Shown here: positions 40,289-47,854 of the stretch, one piece after another | Layout: every line of letters begins with the position of its first letter | Numbering within the stretch: position 1 is the first letter of the stretch | DNA from: Clostridia bacterium | GTDB lineage: Bacteria; Bacillota; Clostridia; Oscillospirales; Acutalibacteraceae | Assembly (NCBI GenBank): GCA_030526115.1 | Contig: JAUNDK010000006.1 | Span: 1 to 64,000, forward strand | Reading direction: 5' to 3' | DNA length: 64,000 nucleotides | The notes under the pieces: generated by a model | What the model saw: only the letters and a program-made list of their open reading frames with translations | Told to the model about the DNA's origin: nothing | Database searches by the model: none | Position numbers and translations under genes: made by a program

Positions 40289-42352
40289 TTATGATAATAC
40301 TTTAACCTGATAAGGCTCAAGTTTAATTGATTTTACCCTTATGCCGTCGAGTATATCAAGATACTCATTCGGAAGCATGAGTTCTTTTTCCTCACCTGAG
40401 TAGTTTTCGACGAATACAAATTCTGTGCCGTCATCAGCTGTTCTTGTATGGACCGTTACACCGTAAGGAAGTTCTGTTTCGAGATTTCTCTTTACACCGG
40501 CTTCGCTTACAAGTACATCATAGAACTTATCGAGGAAATCACCGTCTGCCTGAGTTGCGAGATAGTAGGCTTTACCCTGACCAAACTTATTGACAGTCAG
40601 GCATGGCTCTCCCTCATAGAAATCACTTCCGTATGTTGCGAGAACCTCAGCACCTCTTGCGTGGATGATACCGCAGAGTTCACTGCATCTGAACGAGCCG
40701 TCAAACGGAGAGTTCTCTGACATTACCATGCTGTTCTCGTCCTCATCCCAAAGGCCGTCTATGCTCTCGTTCCAGATTCCGAAAACTTCCATAAGTCCCG
40801 CACCCGGCCATCCGCCTAAGAAGCAGAGGTCTGTGTCATCAACTATACCTGAGTTTGCGGTCATGAGTATTTTACCGCCACCCTCAACGAAAGCCTTAAT
40901 CTTATCGCCGAAGTTATTTCTGAGCATGTAGAGCATAGGTGCGATAACCAGCTTGTAACCGCTTATATCGTCTTCCATATCCACGAAGTCGACATTTATA
41001 CCCTTGTTCCACAGGGCTCTGTGGTGCTTTAAGACTGTCTCTATGTAGTGAATTCCGTCACCCTTGCCGTCCCAGCTCTTGCTTCTTGAGCCGTAGCGTG
41101 GGCCCTGGGCATTCTCCACCGCCCAGCGGTTTTCCCAGTCATAGATTACAGCTACTTCAGCCTTAACTTCACTTCCGTAGATTTTATCTGTAAGAGCCTC
41201 GAGGGTCTTGCCGACCTCTGTTACGTCCCTGAATACTCTTGTCTCATCTGTCCCCACATGGTCAACGACAGCACCATGGAATTTCTCGGAGGAACCCCTT
41301 GACTTTCTGAACTGGAAATACTGAACAGACTCTGAACCGTGGGCAACAGCCTGTAAAGATGCGGCAAGGTGCATACCCGGTCTCTTGAGCTTTGAGGCAG
41401 GAACCCAGTTTACTGTGCTTGGGGTGTTCTCCATAAGAAGAAAGTTCTGATGTTTTACACTGCGCATTACATCGTGACAGGCACCGCTTCTTGCGGCTAT
41501 GTCCACATTATTTCCCCTGTGCCACTGTGGGTAATTATCCCATGAAACTACATCAAGGCAGTCGAACTTGTTATAGTCGAGCCCGTCATAGAAGTGCATG
41601 AGGTTTGCTGTGCATGGTATTTCAGGGTTTACAGCCTTTACGGCATCCATCTCCACCTTCATGAAATCAACGGTCTGATGGGTTACAAAGCGCTTCCAGT
41701 CGAGGTTGAGTCCGTGAATTGACAGCTCACCGTTGGAGAAAGGCGGATTTATCTGATCCCAGCTCCGGTATGTGTGGGACCAGAAATGGGTCCACCATGC
41801 GTGGTTAAGGTTATCGAGGGTCTGATATTTCTCCTTGAGCCACTCACGGAAGGCATTCACACAGTTAGGACAGTAACACTCACCGCAGAACTCATTGCTG
41901 AGATGCCACAGCACAACACCGGGATGATGTGAAAATCTCTCTGCGAGTTTTGTGTCCATCTGTTTTACCTTCATGCGGTAATATGGAGATGTGTAGCAGT
42001 GGTTGTGTCTGTCACCGCTCTTGTCACGCACACCGTCTTTTGACACTCTGCGAACTTCCTCGTACTTCTCGCTCATCCAGAGGGGCTTTGCGCCGGAAGG
42101 TGTGGCGAGAACTGTGTAAATTCCGTTATCGTAAAGATTGTTGATAATCTCCTCTAGCCAGTCGAAGTCGTAAACTCCCTCCTGTGGCTCCAGATGTGCC
42201 CATGAGAATATTCCAACGGAAACGGAATTCATGTGAGCCTTTTTGAGCAGCTCTATGTCTTTCTTTAATATATCAGGGTAACTGAGCCACTGTTCCGGGT
42301 TATAGTCAGCACCATGAATGAGCTGCGGAAATTTTGGTGTAAGTTTTTTCAT
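40289..42352 (-). CDS. Beta-galactosidase, glycoside hydrolase family 42
   Basis: Retaining cytoplasmic enzyme that removes beta-galactosyl residues. The 687 residues show the GH42 (alpha/beta)8 barrel start HGADYNPEQWLSYPDILKKDIELLKKAHMN, the acid/base Glu in LWHLSNEFCGEC, a metal-binding Cys cluster (CGECYCPNC), and the nucleophile Glu in FLLMENTPSTVNW. Trimerisation (VIAPMLYMLR) and C-terminal domains are present at normal length. No signal peptide, so substrates must be imported. It follows the acylation cassette but is separated from it by a terminator-like hairpin; no transporter lies beside it. GAGGAG precedes the ATG. Confidence 0.95.
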   Translation of the reverse strand: MKKLTPKFPQLIHGADYNPEQWLSYPDILKKDIELLKKAHMNSVSVGIFSWAHLEPQEGVYDFDWLEEIINNLYDNGIYTVLATPSGAKPLWMSEKYEEVRRVSKDGVRDKSGDRHNHCYTSPYYRMKVKQMDTKLAERFSHHPGVVLWHLSNEFCGECYCPNCVNAFREWLKEKYQTLDNLNHAWWTHFWSHTYRSWDQINPPFSNGELSIHGLNLDWKRFVTHQTVDFMKVEMDAVKAVNPEIPCTANLMHFYDGLDYNKFDCLDVVSWDNYPQWHRGNNVDIAARSGACHDVMRSVKHQNFLLMENTPSTVNWVPASKLKRPGMHLAASLQAVAHGSESVQYFQFRKSRGSSEKFHGAVVDHVGTDETRVFRDVTEVGKTLEALTDKIYGSEVKAEVAVIYDWENRWAVENAQGPRYGSRSKSWDGKGDGIHYIETVLKHHRALWNKGINVDFVDMEDDISGYKLVIAPMLYMLRNNFGDKIKAFVEGGGKILMTANSGIVDDTDLCFLGGWPGAGLMEVFGIWNESIDGLWDEDENSMVMSENSPFDGSFRCSELCGIIHARGAEVLATYGSDFYEGEPCLTVNKFGQGKAYYLATQADGDFLDKFYDVLVSEAGVKRNLETELPYGVTVHTRTADDGTEFVFVENYSGEEKELMLPNEYLDILDGIRVKSIKLEPYQVKVLS

Positions 42353-42365
42353 GATTTTAACTCCT

Positions 42366-42403
42366 CAAAAGAAAAGAAAGCTATGAGCAATTTGCCCACA
42401 GCT
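42366..42403 (-). terminator. Terminator-like hairpin between the acyl carrier protein and GH42 genes
   Basis: Minus strand AGCTGTGGGC...GCTCATAGCT (42379-42403, one mismatch and a G-T pair) followed by TTCTTTTCTTTT. The T-rich tail is imperfect, so some read-through is possible. Confidence 0.65.
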
Positions 42404-42416
42404 CCCTCTGAATAAA

Positions 42417-42662
42417 TTACTTACTTGCTCTCTGGGCAATAATCTGAGCCATCTCGCCTACGTTCTTCATGGAAGAAATCTCACCCATCTTGAACTTCAT
42501 GCCGAACTCTCTCTCAACTGCGGAGATGAGTGTGATGTGCTCAAGGCTGTCCCAGTCTTCAATGTCATTTGCTGTTGTCTTTGGTGTGATTCTGATGCTT
42601 GCATCATCGAATACATCCTGGAAAACTCTGTTAAGTCTTGTAAATAATGTCTTTGCGTCCAT
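42417..42662 (-). CDS. Acyl carrier protein of the envelope acylation cassette
   Basis: An 81-residue acidic carrier protein. The phosphopantetheine site is Ser39 in DWDSLEHITL, with helices typical of ACPs (VEREFGMKFKMGEI). It is not next to fatty acid synthesis genes; it follows the FkbH-like gene by 15 bases in a cassette with MBOAT and DHHW proteins. By analogy with DltC, it probably carries a small acyl group loaded by the FkbH-like protein to the membrane acyltransferase. GGAGGT precedes the ATG. Confidence 0.88.
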   Translation of the reverse strand: MDAKTLFTRLNRVFQDVFDDASIRITPKTTANDIEDWDSLEHITLISAVEREFGMKFKMGEISSMKNVGEMAQIIAQRASK

Positions 42663-42677
42663 GGTATGAACCTCCGT

Positions 42678-44465
42678 TTAATTTATTTCTTCAACTACGT
42701 TGATATATTTGTTCTTGTTCTCGTAAGAAGTGATATCCAGCTCCCATACGGTGTTGCCTTCTTCGTCCTCTTTTGTCTTTGTGAAACCGAAGGTGCCGTA
42801 AAGCTCACGAACCATGTTGTTCTTCGCTGTTGGATAATAGTAACCTGTGAGTTTCTCTATACCCTGAGCCTTTGCCTTCTCGACAAGTTTATCGAGCATT
42901 GCAAGTTCCATGTCTCTCTTGAGTACTCGGCAGCTCATGAGCCAGAGATCTATGTTAAGGTTATTGCCGTCTTTCTTTCCGATTACTACGGATACAACAC
43001 CGTTATCACCGAATTTATCTATCAGCTTGCCGTAAAGACGGATATACTCATCACTCTCGAATACCTGCTCCATCTCGGCAGGAGTGTAACGCTTTGTTGT
43101 AACATTGAACTGGTTTGATTTATTTGTGAGCTGAGTGATACGGGCGATGTAAACCGGCTTGAAGTCGGCGATTTCACCTGTCATTTCAAGGCTCTTTAAA
43201 TATTCACCGTAATCACCGAAAGAAGCCAGCTGCTGATTTCTCAGCACATTCTTCTTGTACATTTCGTTGCGCTTGAGGTCATCATCACTGAAGCTTGTAA
43301 CCTCAAAGAAACCGGAGCGGTCTATTATGTTGATGTAGTTCTCAACGCCCTCCATCTCAGGCACGGCACATCCTGCAATCTGAGCGGATACTATGGCACG
43401 TTCCGCAGGGTTATCGTCTGCGAAAACAATGGCATCCTGACCGATGTTAAGCTCAAGGGCTGTTTCCGCAATGTTTCTGTCCTTATTCTCCCAGTTTGCC
43501 TTTATGATGATGAAATCATCCGGTTTTAATGCTCCTTCAGGATGATTTAAACCTGCAATGGCATTCTCATGGTCATTCTTGGAGCATACTGTGAGAACTA
43601 TACCGAGCTGCTTAAGTTCCTTAACATAGCTCTGGAACTCGTAGTAGGACTGGCTTACGCCTGTCTCCTGACCGATTTCGATTCCGTCAACACCATCGTC
43701 ACCTACAACTCCACCCCAGAGGGTATTGTCGAGGTCAAGGGCAAGGGCCTTCTTGTTCTTACCGAATATGGACTTGATGATATTTGCCACGCTGAAAGAG
43801 AAGCTTGGAATAGCCTCGAAGCACATGGCATACTTGTACATATTCCAGAAAAGCGGATTTGACCACTCCTTCAGGCCGTAGTCCGCAGAGATAAAGTTGA
43901 GGTCATTTACATAGAAGCTCTCGTTCTCTCTTGCGTAGGAGTAAATATAATCGTTAAGTCTTGTAATAAAGTTTGTTCTGCCGTGAATATCCCATGCATC
44001 TCTGTTTCCGAGGAGACGGTAAAGCGGCATCTCAAAGTTATTCTGGATAATCGGGCAGTGGAATTTCTCTTTGACGCTCTCCCACATTACATGGAACTTC
44101 TGAGCCTCAGCATTGAACTTCGCCTCTACGTCCTCGGCAGAGTCTGTCATAACAGGATAGTTTGTAATGTTTCTGTTGGATGTGTGAATGAACACAATAT
44201 CAGGGTTAAAGTTCATCAGATGTTCATCAGGGAACATTGCATCCTGCCAGTACTGAGCATACTCAGACTCATAGAACTCCGGCTCAATTCCGTAGTTTAA
44301 AAGGAACAGTTCCAGTATGCTGATAATATTCGCTGTGGTGGAGCCACCGAGAACCGCAATCTTCTTTTTGATTCTTGTAGTTCCGTCAGCTTTCAAAGCC
44401 TTTTTTATAGACTTCTTTTTGTTGATTATATATCCCGCATCAAATGGGTATTCAAGTTCTTTCAT
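42678..44465 (-). CDS. FkbH-like HAD-IIIC protein with SGNH-like and GNAT-like domains
   Basis: A 595-residue three-domain protein. Residues 30-225 look SGNH-like (VLGGSTTANIISILELFLL), the middle is the FkbH HAD domain (ALDLDNTLWGGVVGDDG with Asp244 and Asp246; VCSKNDHENA; VFADDNPAERAIV), and the end resembles GNAT (NQFNVTTKRYT, MSCRVLKRDMELAMLDKLV, LYGTFGF). Known FkbH enzymes take 1,3-bisphosphoglycerate, remove phosphate and load the glyceryl group on an acyl carrier protein. An ACP gene follows directly, and MBOAT and DHHW genes precede it. The acyl group here (glyceryl or related) is inference. Confidence 0.85.
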   Translation of the reverse strand: MKELEYPFDAGYIINKKKSIKKALKADGTTRIKKKIAVLGGSTTANIISILELFLLNYGIEPEFYESEYAQYWQDAMFPDEHLMNFNPDIVFIHTSNRNITNYPVMTDSAEDVEAKFNAEAQKFHVMWESVKEKFHCPIIQNNFEMPLYRLLGNRDAWDIHGRTNFITRLNDYIYSYARENESFYVNDLNFISADYGLKEWSNPLFWNMYKYAMCFEAIPSFSFSVANIIKSIFGKNKKALALDLDNTLWGGVVGDDGVDGIEIGQETGVSQSYYEFQSYVKELKQLGIVLTVCSKNDHENAIAGLNHPEGALKPDDFIIIKANWENKDRNIAETALELNIGQDAIVFADDNPAERAIVSAQIAGCAVPEMEGVENYINIIDRSGFFEVTSFSDDDLKRNEMYKKNVLRNQQLASFGDYGEYLKSLEMTGEIADFKPVYIARITQLTNKSNQFNVTTKRYTPAEMEQVFESDEYIRLYGKLIDKFGDNGVVSVVIGKKDGNNLNIDLWLMSCRVLKRDMELAMLDKLVEKAKAQGIEKLTGYYYPTAKNNMVRELYGTFGFTKTKEDEEGNTVWELDITSYENKNKYINVVEEIN

Positions 44466-44467
44466 AA

Positions 44468-46306
44468 TTATTCCTCATCTGTGCTATCGTCTGTGTTTTC
44501 TTCTGTGGTATCTGCAGTAGTATCTGTGTTCACAGAAGTGCTTGAATTTTCATCCTCAAGGGCTTCGTCATAAAGAGTCTGACCCTTTGCCTGAGTGAGA
44601 AGGTAAGGAATGTTCTCGGAGTTACCGCCGACAACAGAGTAAGAACATGTTGAGAACAGTACATCTGTTGTACCTGTGAAGTTGATGAAATCAATGAGAT
44701 TAAGCTCAAAATATCTGAGGTCAACAACCCAGATTTCCTCGAAGGATGCCACATACCACGGAATTTCCGCATTTCCGTAGGAATCCTTGATAACCATAAG
44801 CTTTCTGCCGTTGTTTGCAGTACCTTTGACCTTCAGAATCTGATCGTCACCGCCTATGAACATCATGTAGGAGTTCGGTGTATCTGTCTCAATAAAGAGA
44901 CTGTCACTGTACTGATAGTTGAAGTATCTGTCGTAGGAATATGTATCAACAGTCTGCTTTGGCTTATAGTAGGTAAAATCTTCAGGGTCGTTGAGAATAC
45001 GGTAATCCTCGGTGTAACCGTAGTAAGAACCTATGTAGCCCTCATTTACACCCTTCTCGAAGGTATCTATATCAGCAAACGGAACACCCGCCGCCTCCGC
45101 AAATGTTCTTGCGGCATAGTATGCACCAAGCTGACTCCAGTGGTGGTCTGTTCTTAAGTAGATATCTTCTTCTGTATGTTTTGCGAGAACAGGACAGACA
45201 TTTATTGATGTAATGCCGGCATCAAGCTCGCCTGCAATTTCCTCGAATCTGTCATTGTGGGAATAGGTGTATTCCATTGCATTTGCCGGAGTGTAAAACT
45301 CTGATGCAAGAGGACAAGGCATGCTCCAGATATTAATATTACTGTCAAGAGCCTTGCGTAAATCGTTAAGACCATTTACATAGTCGGTGGAATCACCGTA
45401 ACCGAAGAGACCGAGAACACGATAGTGACCGTCAACGTTTACTATGATAAGACCGTCGGACCAGTCAAATTCGTTATCCTGCTTTGTAAAGTCGGTCTGT
45501 TCTGCCTCAGTGTCGGCAATTGTACCGATTTTGATATGCTTGCTTCGTCTGCCGGCAGATCCCTTAAGCTTTGCGTCGGAATATTCTTTTCCACCGGCTG
45601 AAGTATTTGCGGTTTCAGCTGTTGCGGTCTCGAAAATACCTGTTGTATCCACAGGAGTTTCTTTTTCCTGAACATTTACATTTACAGGAGCATCAGCCTT
45701 TTCTTCCTTATCGGTATTGTTTACCGGAGGTTCGTTTGTTTTCTTTGTGGCATTGTTAACGAAGATGATGTCATCCTCGCTGCTGGGAAGACCGAATGTG
45801 GACTTGATAGAGTATCCTGCATTCTTTAATTTATCTCTGTTGGGAATTGTATCTGTAAACCACTCTGTAATTCTTGTTGTAAATTCTGCTTTGAAGTATG
45901 AACCGAATGAGAAGGATGGAAACTTTGCCAGAGTACGCTTCTCAATCTGAGATACATGAGACTTTGGGAAAAACAGCATGTATATTACAAAGAAACAGAA
46001 TACCGGAATGAGTATCGCCATTGAGAGAAGAGAGATTCTTGTCTCCATAAGCTTACGCCTGTGCTTTTCTTTCTTCTCTTCCGGAGATTCCTCTTCGGCT
46101 CCACCGAAAAGATCAAAATCTCCGAAATCCATATCATCGTAATCGGATGTATCTTCATCAGCTGCGGATGACATGGAAAAGTTTTCCGCATCAAAACCAA
46201 AATCTCCGTGCTCCTCCTTCGGCTTCTTTGAAGAAGGGCTGAAATCTGAGAAGAGATCGTCCAGATTAATATCACTGAACATATCTTTATTGTTATTATT
46301 ATCCAT
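44468..46306 (-). CDS. DHHW/AlgX-like membrane-anchored acyltransferase
   Basis: A 612-residue protein: acidic disordered cytoplasmic tail (1-85), one membrane helix at about 90-113, then a large external domain. It starts with SQIEKRTLAKFPSFSFGSYF and FTTRITEWFTDTIPNRD, the DHHW-family entry, and carries the SGNH-like catalytic residues: Asp/His in YLRTDHHWSQLGAYYAARTF and Ser in VIKDSYGNAEIPWYV. AlgX/AlgJ proteins of this type transfer acetyl groups to extracellular polysaccharide. A Ser/Thr/Asp-rich tail ends the protein. It starts 18 bases after the MBOAT stop and ends two bases before the FkbH-like gene, so the cassette is one operon. Confidence 0.85.
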   Translation of the reverse strand: MDNNNNKDMFSDINLDDLFSDFSPSSKKPKEEHGDFGFDAENFSMSSAADEDTSDYDDMDFGDFDLFGGAEEESPEEKKEKHRRKLMETRISLLSMAILIPVFCFFVIYMLFFPKSHVSQIEKRTLAKFPSFSFGSYFKAEFTTRITEWFTDTIPNRDKLKNAGYSIKSTFGLPSSEDDIIFVNNATKKTNEPPVNNTDKEEKADAPVNVNVQEKETPVDTTGIFETATAETANTSAGGKEYSDAKLKGSAGRRSKHIKIGTIADTEAEQTDFTKQDNEFDWSDGLIIVNVDGHYRVLGLFGYGDSTDYVNGLNDLRKALDSNINIWSMPCPLASEFYTPANAMEYTYSHNDRFEEIAGELDAGITSINVCPVLAKHTEEDIYLRTDHHWSQLGAYYAARTFAEAAGVPFADIDTFEKGVNEGYIGSYYGYTEDYRILNDPEDFTYYKPKQTVDTYSYDRYFNYQYSDSLFIETDTPNSYMMFIGGDDQILKVKGTANNGRKLMVIKDSYGNAEIPWYVASFEEIWVVDLRYFELNLIDFINFTGTTDVLFSTCSYSVVGGNSENIPYLLTQAKGQTLYDEALEDENSSTSVNTDTTADTTEENTDDSTDEE

Positions 46307-46324
46307 TTATATTCGCCTTTCGTC

Positions 46325-47746
46325 TTAGAATCGGAAATAGAGGAATACGTTGTTTGTAGTGTCAACAAGAAGTATGCTGAGTATGACAAGCAATGCGAGG
46401 CAACCCACAACACTGCCTATTCTGCCTGCGGCATAAATAGTCGGATTCTTGTTCTCGAGAACATACTGCTTGAGCTTTGGAAGCACCGGCATGGAAATAA
46501 CCGCCGCAACCAGAATAAGGAACAGATTTTCTTTAAAGCTTGAAAATGTAACCATATCAAAGAAACCGGTTTTGTTTATAAACATGTTAATTCCCAGAAT
46601 GTTAAGGAAGAACTGACCAAGCTGCTTCAGATTCTCAAAATAGAAAATACCGAAACCTATTACAATAATAAGTTTGGAATAGATATGCTTCCACCATGTA
46701 GGCCAGCTTTTCAGAACCTTTTTGCCGAGTCTCTGCTCGAAGAAAATCCAGCATCCGAAATAAAGGCCCCAGATGATGTAGTTCCATGCGGCACCATGCC
46801 ACATACCTGTGCAGAACCATACAAGGAAAAGTCCCATGTATTTTCTCGGTTTGCCGAAAATCGGAACATAAAGAAGATAATCACGGAAGAATGAACCGAG
46901 GGAGATGTGCCATCTCTGCCAGAACTCCGCAATTGTCTTGCAGGCGAACGGATGAGTGAAGTTTTCATCAAAGTGGAAACCGAACATTCTGCCAAGACCT
47001 ATGGCAATATCGGAATATCCGCTGAAATCGAAATAAACATAGAGAGAATATACGATAACAGTGTACCATGTTCCCATTGTTGAAAGGCCCGAAATATCTC
47101 CTCCGAAGAAAGTGGTTACAATGCTGTAAAGATTATTAGCAAGAATAACCTTCTTTGCAAGGCCCATGATCACTCTGAGGGCACCGTCACAAAGATCGTT
47201 TACAGTAACACGTCTGTTATCAATCTCATCTTCGATTACGCTGTAACGGACGATAGGACCCGCAATCAGCTGTGGGAAAAGAGAGAGATAGAGGAGGAAT
47301 TTATAGTAGTCATGCTGAACCTTTACGCTGTCCCAGTAGCAGTCGAGAATATATGAGATTGCCTGGAATGTAAAGAAGCTTATGCCTATCGGAAGGGTAA
47401 TTCTCGGAACAGGTATGGATGAGCGGAAAAGTGCATTGATGTTCTCGACTATAAAGCCCGAATACTTGAATATTATAAGCAGGGCAATATCAACCGTAAC
47501 ACCCAGAGCGACCGAGGCTTTTGCGCCCGGTGTACCTTTGGTTTTTTCAATACTCAGGCCTATGAACCAGTTGAACGCCGAGCTGAACAACAGAAGTATA
47601 ATCCAGAGCGGCTCACCCCATGCATAGAAGATGAGGGAAAAAACTATCAGGACAATGTTCTTGGTTTTCAGATTCTTCGCCGCAAGATAACTTATCAGAC
47701 AAAGCGGCAGAAAGAAGTAGATAAAAAACAGATCTGCGAATACCAT
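46325..47746 (-). CDS. MBOAT-family membrane acyltransferase (AlgI/DltB-like)
   Basis: A 473-residue polytopic enzyme with about eleven helices. The family signature is complete: FYAWGEPLWIILLLFSSAFNWFIG early, LPIGISFFTFQAISYILDCYW, WQRWHISLGSFFRDYLLYVP, and the catalytic His in GMWHGAAWNYIIWGLYFG. AlgI and DltB move acyl groups across the membrane for transfer to surface glycans or teichoic acids. First gene of the MBOAT-DHHW-FkbH-ACP operon, so the donor is probably the ACP-bound acyl group. Target polymer is not identifiable from the window. Confidence 0.93.
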   Translation of the reverse strand: MVFADLFFIYFFLPLCLISYLAAKNLKTKNIVLIVFSLIFYAWGEPLWIILLLFSSAFNWFIGLSIEKTKGTPGAKASVALGVTVDIALLIIFKYSGFIVENINALFRSSIPVPRITLPIGISFFTFQAISYILDCYWDSVKVQHDYYKFLLYLSLFPQLIAGPIVRYSVIEDEIDNRRVTVNDLCDGALRVIMGLAKKVILANNLYSIVTTFFGGDISGLSTMGTWYTVIVYSLYVYFDFSGYSDIAIGLGRMFGFHFDENFTHPFACKTIAEFWQRWHISLGSFFRDYLLYVPIFGKPRKYMGLFLVWFCTGMWHGAAWNYIIWGLYFGCWIFFEQRLGKKVLKSWPTWWKHIYSKLIIVIGFGIFYFENLKQLGQFFLNILGINMFINKTGFFDMVTFSSFKENLFLILVAAVISMPVLPKLKQYVLENKNPTIYAAGRIGSVVGCLALLVILSILLVDTTNNVFLYFRF

Positions 47747-47825: not shown

Positions 47826-47854
47826 ATTTTATTATATATGTTTTGTATCGTCAA
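47826..47854 (-). promoter_or_regulatory. Promoter of the acylation cassette
   Basis: Minus strand TTGACG (47849-47854), 17-base spacer, TAAAAT (47826-47831); leader about 75 bases. Confidence 0.6.

Follow-up and report, generated by a model that had tools for sequence, protein, structure and literature searches.

A stretch of 64,000 nucleotides from contig JAUNDK010000006.1 of a Clostridia bacterium (the window) contains four closely spaced genes at 42417-47746 on the minus strand, which form one operon in the order MBOAT, DHHW, FkbH and acyl carrier protein (ACP), with gaps of 18, 2 and 15 nt. An earlier reading of the letters alone (the sequence-only reading) had described them as an envelope acylation cassette resembling DltABCD, with an FkbH-type loader in place of DltA. 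Families were assigned with Pfam and NCBIfam profiles at the family cut-offs. All four genes are present as proposed and score above their cut-offs, and the catalytic residues named for the ACP, the MBOAT and the DHHW protein are intact (Ser39, His317, and TDHHW with Ser509, respectively). The features of the locus are as follows.

46325..47746, minus strand: MBOAT membrane O-acyltransferase, 473 amino acids (PF03062 above, TIGR04091 below cut-off)
44468..46306, minus strand: DHHW-family SGNH-type acyltransferase, 612 amino acids (PF14286 and ALGX; matches to 4nzk and PatB1)
42678..44465, minus strand: predicted FkbH-type glyceryl transferase/phosphatase, HAD-IIIC plus GNAT-like C-terminal domain, 595 amino acids (TIGR01686; 3slr)
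42417..42662, minus strand: dedicated acyl carrier protein, 81 amino acids (PF00550; WDSL)
42373..42409, minus strand: terminator-like hairpin at the operon end, 17-pair stem and T-rich tail (consensus scan only)
47826..47854, minus strand: promoter-like site 5' of the MBOAT gene, TTGACG-17-TAAAAT, 10/12 match (weak; the scan yields no more sites than chance)

A contig scan with the window FkbH yielded 80 Oscillospirales-type loci of 68-81% identity, labelled mostly Ruminococcus, Oscillospiraceae and Clostridia. The MBOAT gene is found in 59 of them, the DHHW gene in 73 and the ACP gene in 75, in the same order as in the window, and most missing cassette genes coincide with contig ends. Because this identical gene order recurs in most of the 80 relatives, the operon is not a chance arrangement. 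The ACP serine, the HAD motif of FkbH and the shuttle motif of the MBOAT are kept in all relatives examined. Conservation of the neighbourhood had been named beforehand as a point on which the proposal could fail, and it was borne out.

At its 5' end, the operon faces a diaminopimelate dehydrogenase gene of opposite orientation (47999, plus strand). On the other side, a GH42 beta-galactosidase gene (40289-42352) lies on the same strand, 64 nt downstream of the ACP gene. We set it apart from the operon because the strong terminator-like hairpin (42409-42373) follows directly after the ACP gene; in the relatives, the GH42 gene does not adjoin the cassette.

The MBOAT matches PF03062 with 67.9 bits (cut-off 27) and has the universal histidine of the family, His317 (46796-46798), within WHG. 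By sequence and by fold, its closest solved structures are those of DltB (8jem and 6bug). For the DltB equivalog TIGR04091, however, it scores only 149 bits where 375 are required, and it is not DltB proper; the sequence-only reading, which gave it the DltB role, had overlooked the C-terminal FLYFRF (46328-46345). This sequence matches the acyl-shuttle motif FXYXXF, with Tyr470 as its tyrosine, and occurs as FLYFRF in 51 and FLYWRF in 8 of 59 relatives; His317 is invariant. Acyl-Tyr shuttling through FXYXXF has been demonstrated for DltX and PatA, and Dlt systems carry the motif on the separate protein DltX (PMC12148441). Since the window MBOAT itself ends in the motif, like PatA, DltX is not needed. 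The predicted structure has a local confidence (pLDDT) of 81 and a predicted template modelling score (pTM) of 0.81; its final eight residues are of low confidence, which might fit a mobile shuttle and is no evidence by itself. The protein combines the C-terminal FXYXXF and universal histidine of fused-shuttle MBOAT-SGNH systems of the PatA/AlgI type. Those are described with an acyl-CoA donor and no carrier protein, whereas this operon contains its own ACP and loader. The same genome encodes four more MBOATs (G000 C117, C111, C6 and C62; L129, L131, L132 and L133), all with FXYFXF-type ends; two stand beside DHHW-like genes and none of the four has a carrier protein.

The DHHW protein matches PF14286 with 122.3 bits (cut-off 25) and ALGX (PF16822) with 46.6 bits. 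A single transmembrane helix at about residues 86-118, followed by an extracellular domain, is predicted. Using published block definitions (PMC9487903), we found the DHHW block V (TDHHW, 386-390), the serine block I (KDSYGNA, with Ser509) and the DxRY block II (DLRY, 529-532) that mark the PatB1-like family. Its matches among solved structures are 4nzk (242 bits) and PatB1 of B. cereus (5v8e, 37 bits). The sequence relates the protein to this PatB1 and not to DltD.

FkbH scores 268 bits against TIGR01686 (cut-off 146.65) and also matches FkbH_N (PF21211). It consists of an N-terminal FkbH_N domain, a HAD-IIIC domain and a C-terminal GNAT-like fold, as seen in an AlphaFold model (mean pLDDT 76) searched with Foldseek, where 3slr was the best match (1.7e-23), followed by many GNATs at about 1e-6. 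Its active residues include DLDNT (244-248), SKN (295), W325 to K328, DD (350-351) and an SCR motif with Cys512 (42927-42935). Across 36 FkbHs of very different contexts, D244, D246, S295, K296, W325, K328, D350, D351 and SCR/Cys512 are invariant, and most of these, Cys512 included, are kept in three short FkbH forms as well. One of the three, at L150, adjoins 3-hydroxyacyl-CoA dehydrogenase and acyl-CoA dehydrogenase genes, like methoxymalonyl-ACP operons. All residues in common with this methoxymalonyl-type FkbH are present in the window protein, which also has a partner ACP; here, too, the sequence-only reading could have failed and did not. The cysteine of the VCSKN motif was rejected as an acyl acceptor, as it varies across FkbHs whereas Cys512 is invariant. 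In one relative (L141:5658-7460), a stop codon breaks the FkbH frame, through either assembly error or decay.

The FkbH homologue Tmn16 forms glyceryl-S-ACP from D-1,3-bisphosphoglycerate in vitro, on discrete ACPs (PMC3625739), and the window FkbH and ACP are similar in length to AbyA2 (622 aa) and AbyA3 (78 aa), respectively (PMC3625739; PMC7489565). The ACP itself matches PF00550 with 23.1 bits (cut-off 20.8) and has its phosphopantetheine serine, Ser39, in WDSL (42543-42551), a motif present in 75 of 75 cassette ACPs examined. Within the 2.59 Mb genome there are only one FkbH and two ACPs, the other ACP being AcpP-like, with ADSL; the FkbH-ACP pair thus has no other recorded partner. A role in polyketide or non-ribosomal peptide synthesis was rejected, the AcpP-like protein being the sole other carrier protein of the genome.

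To place the operon in a wider context, we used an order-level sample of 197 genomes containing 33 full-length FkbH loci, window included, and scored linkage as an MBOAT, AT3 or DHHW gene within 8 kb of FkbH on the same strand. The trait is patchy: in the window's own family, only the window genome and two others have FkbH. A membrane acyltransferase or SGNH partner stands beside 28 of the 33 FkbH genes (MBOAT in 23, AT3 in one, DHHW only in four); arithmetic from five MBOATs in 2.59 Mb gives a chance expectation of about 3% for an MBOAT near FkbH.

The sample revealed several arrangements. Besides the window type, MBOAT-DHHW(1-3)-FkbH-ACP, we found FkbH-ACP-MBOAT followed by a 'GDSL/DltD-like' gene (weak Pfam matches, GSS and DxxH motifs), FkbH-ACP-VOC-MBOAT-SGNH preceded by a pyridoxal phosphate (PLP)-dependent enzyme, and FkbH-ACP-MBOAT-DHHW with an FkbH of another clade. 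At L136:451-4914, the order is AAC(3)-like acyltransferase, FkbH, VOC, ACP, AT3, and the pair apparently serves AT3 in place of an MBOAT. Outside the order, L122 has MBOAT-GDSL-FkbH-ACP-VOC adjoining glycosyltransferases. In PLSDB, a marine alphaproteobacterium (SC52) has ACP-FkbH-MBOAT-SGNH-like-VOC amid sulfotransferase genes, and 40 Sinorhizobium records match VOC-MBOAT-SGNH-like-ACP-FkbH, among them pSymB of S. meliloti 1021 (NC_003078.1, 631072-636671) and 2011 (L177, 623219-640670), close to K-antigen export genes. SC52 and S. meliloti retain all of the FkbH residues, WDSL and FXYXXF; the SGNH-like label there refers to GxS and DxxH motifs recognised by eye, Pfam giving no match. One annotated strain labels the SGNH-like gene 'TonB-dependent receptor', probably wrongly. 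Two or three tandem DHHW genes occur at L151, L152, L154, L160, L161, L162, L164 and L165, and those at L152, L160 and L161, which have no adjacent MBOAT, belong to one genus. At L168:5425-10053 and L170:1641-6188, an MBOAT (FLYFNF) adjoins a short FkbH of about 350 aa, and no ACP was detected in the vicinity.

In a tree, the FkbHs of cassette types A-E form one clade and that of type F lies elsewhere. The ACP-linked MBOATs are polyphyletic (approximately unbiased test, p = 4.1e-5 against a single clade), with at least four changes. This polyphyly indicates that FkbH-ACP was joined to envelope acyltransferases on several occasions and with SGNH partners of several types. In control genomes of distant phyla, FkbH-ACP pairs occur without an MBOAT; the pair alone therefore implies no envelope role, whereas repeated re-pairing does. 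Changing partners among MBOAT, SGNH and AT3 proteins is how a loader/carrier module that feeds a transmembrane acyltransferase should behave. The same observations bear on a rival explanation, plain MBOAT-DHHW O-acetylation from acetyl-CoA as in PatA1/PatB1, in which case FkbH-ACP would produce a small metabolite of its own and merely share the operon. It would fit the fused-FXYXXF MBOATs that stand beside DHHW genes without an ACP in this very genome, as well as the MBOAT-free pairs of other clades. We nevertheless consider it improbable, given that linkage of the pair to MBOAT/SGNH and AT3 has arisen repeatedly and independently in different orders and phyla, and that here it has no accompanying polyketide synthase, non-ribosomal peptide synthetase or dehydrogenase gene, in a genome whose other ACP is only AcpP-like.

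A VOC/glyoxalase-4 gene, resembling methylmalonyl-CoA epimerase, recurs near FkbH-ACP-MBOAT/AT3 in the variants and in the alphaproteobacteria (L122:7240-7626, L136:3089-3478, L145, L146, L177:3437-4045, L180:11909-12337) and is not found in the window. Its product could be an epimerase of the ACP-bound acyl group. The PLP-dependent enzyme (PALP, TrpB-like; L145:8966-10333, L146:225-1613) is encoded at the start of the FkbH-ACP-VOC-MBOAT-SGNH variant. These genes, together with the remodelling of FkbH products in methoxymalonyl-ACP pathways (PMC7489565), raise the question of whether the same carrier, MBOAT and SGNH route might transfer a group other than D-glyceryl, either one that FkbH takes from another acyl phosphate or a glyceryl epimerised, dehydrated or methylated on the ACP. 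For the window we regard this as unlikely: the operon has four genes and no remodelling enzyme, and its FkbH has the catalytic residues of the methoxymalonyl type, a class using bisphosphoglycerate. Homology to Tmn16-type enzymes makes D-glyceryl the likeliest group.

The neighbourhoods of the variants also inform the choice of acceptor. Lipids and proteins are among the substrates of MBOATs, and in the suomilide pathway, alongside a non-ribosomal peptide synthetase that bears an FkbH, an MBOAT acylates a sugar of the natural product (PMC13122637). A lipid, a protein or a secreted small molecule is therefore conceivable as the acceptor here. We judge such an acceptor doubtful, because characterised fused-shuttle MBOAT-SGNH pairs act on envelope polymers (PMC12148441) and the variants lie near glycosyltransferases (L122), sulfotransferases (L180) and K-antigen export genes (S. 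meliloti). A surface polysaccharide is the acceptor that we infer. Wall teichoic acid was rejected as an obvious candidate since the genome has no match to PF04464 (Glyphos_transf) and no clear LtaS, its one LtaS-like sulfatase-fold protein scoring 34.8 bits against a model cut-off of 970.

Taken together, the operon probably encodes a carrier-protein-dependent MBOAT-SGNH envelope acylation system that is fed from glycolysis and transfers glyceryl to a surface glycan. FkbH would dephosphorylate D-1,3-bisphosphoglycerate and load the glyceryl group onto the phosphopantetheine of ACP Ser39, probably via Cys512 in the GNAT-like domain. At the cytoplasmic side, the MBOAT would use His317 to take the group from the ACP onto its own Tyr470 in FLYFRF. 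Outside the cell, Ser509 of the DHHW protein would receive the group from this tyrosine, and the protein would then esterify hydroxyls of the surface glycan. The chemistry of the first step is modelled on Tmn16 and its relatives and that of the next two on Dlt and PatAB; the gene set, its conservation, the catalytic residues and the re-pairing were observed directly.

Several points weigh against this proposal. Four of the 80 close loci (L013, L022, L042 and L047) have at least 9 kb of upstream sequence without an MBOAT or DHHW match. Among the 33 order-level loci, five (L135, L138, L143, L148 and L149) have no MBOAT, AT3 or DHHW gene, and L152, L158, L160 and L161 have DHHW without an adjacent MBOAT. 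Given the extra VOC and PLP-enzyme genes, the acyl group may differ in some variants. The PDB copy that was searched yielded no ligand structure to define the bisphosphoglycerate-binding residues of FkbH, only 3slr, which has no GNAT domain. Finally, no glycan cluster was seen beside the operon, where only the direct neighbours were annotated.

Glyceryl esters are known on bacterial polysaccharides, in gellan for example. A transferase gene for such esters was not found in the open-access literature, and the operon is a candidate genetic basis for glyceryl esters on bacterial polysaccharides. If so, gut and rumen bacteria would have a direct link from a central glycolytic intermediate, 1,3-bisphosphoglycerate, to their cell surface. 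The more general idea that FkbH and ACP constitute a portable glycolytic acyl-donor module, recruited repeatedly across phyla for MBOAT-SGNH and AT3 systems, with surface-glycan glycerylation being widespread and undescribed, stands in our view at even odds; if true, the level of glycerylation could report glycolytic flux. Because the model symbiont S. meliloti carries the set on pSymB, these predictions are open to immediate test in a standard laboratory strain.

The operon combines features of three known systems. With DltABCD(X) it shares a loader, a discrete carrier, an MBOAT with catalytic histidine, an extracellular SGNH-type transferase and acyl-Tyr shuttle chemistry, and as in Dlt the dedicated carrier, MBOAT and transferase lie in one operon. 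However, its loader is FkbH and not the adenylating DltA, its shuttle is fused to the MBOAT with no DltX, and its SGNH partner is of the DHHW/PatB1 type. The Dlt analogy drawn by the sequence-only reading therefore stands for the logic but not for the machinery, which is of the PatA/PatB1 type. A canonical Dlt system was rejected: in addition to the sub-threshold DltB score, the genome has no DltA above cut-off (best TIGR01734 match 101.6 bits against 559.85).

PatA1/PatB1, which O-acetylates the secondary cell wall polysaccharide of B. cereus, and PatA/PatB likewise have an MBOAT with C-terminal FXYXXF, and PatB1 is likewise a DHHW-family transferase with TDHHW, DxRY and KDS. Those systems are described with acetyl-CoA and no carrier, whereas the window operon adds ACP and loader. 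Tmn16/Tmn7a, AbyA2/AbyA3 and OzmB of tetronate and methoxymalonyl pathways likewise pair an FkbH of about 600 aa with a discrete ACP of about 80 aa, and the methoxymalonyl-type FkbH of L150 shares the HAD residues and SCR cysteine. Their products go to a polyketide synthase or dehydrogenases, whereas that of the window would go to an envelope MBOAT. Two solved relatives, 4NZK (Eubacterium siraeum EUBSIR_00411) for DHHW and 3SLR (Bacteroides fragilis BF1531) for FkbH, have no assigned function.

The sequence-only reading knew of no described system with this exact set. Our search agrees as far as publication goes: in 5.39 million open-access papers (subscription literature lay outside its scope), FkbH/HAD-IIIC and MBOAT/DltB were found together only in cyanobacterial peptide clusters, acting separately. 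The set is not unique to the clade, though, as S. meliloti and the marine alphaproteobacterium have it too. A 2025 paper on MBOAT-SGNH systems states that a hybrid of carrier protein and fused shuttle is absent outside Dlt. From its predicted proteins, the window operon is such a hybrid and an exception to that statement, and it contradicts the current view that non-Dlt MBOAT-SGNH systems run on acyl-CoA without a carrier protein.

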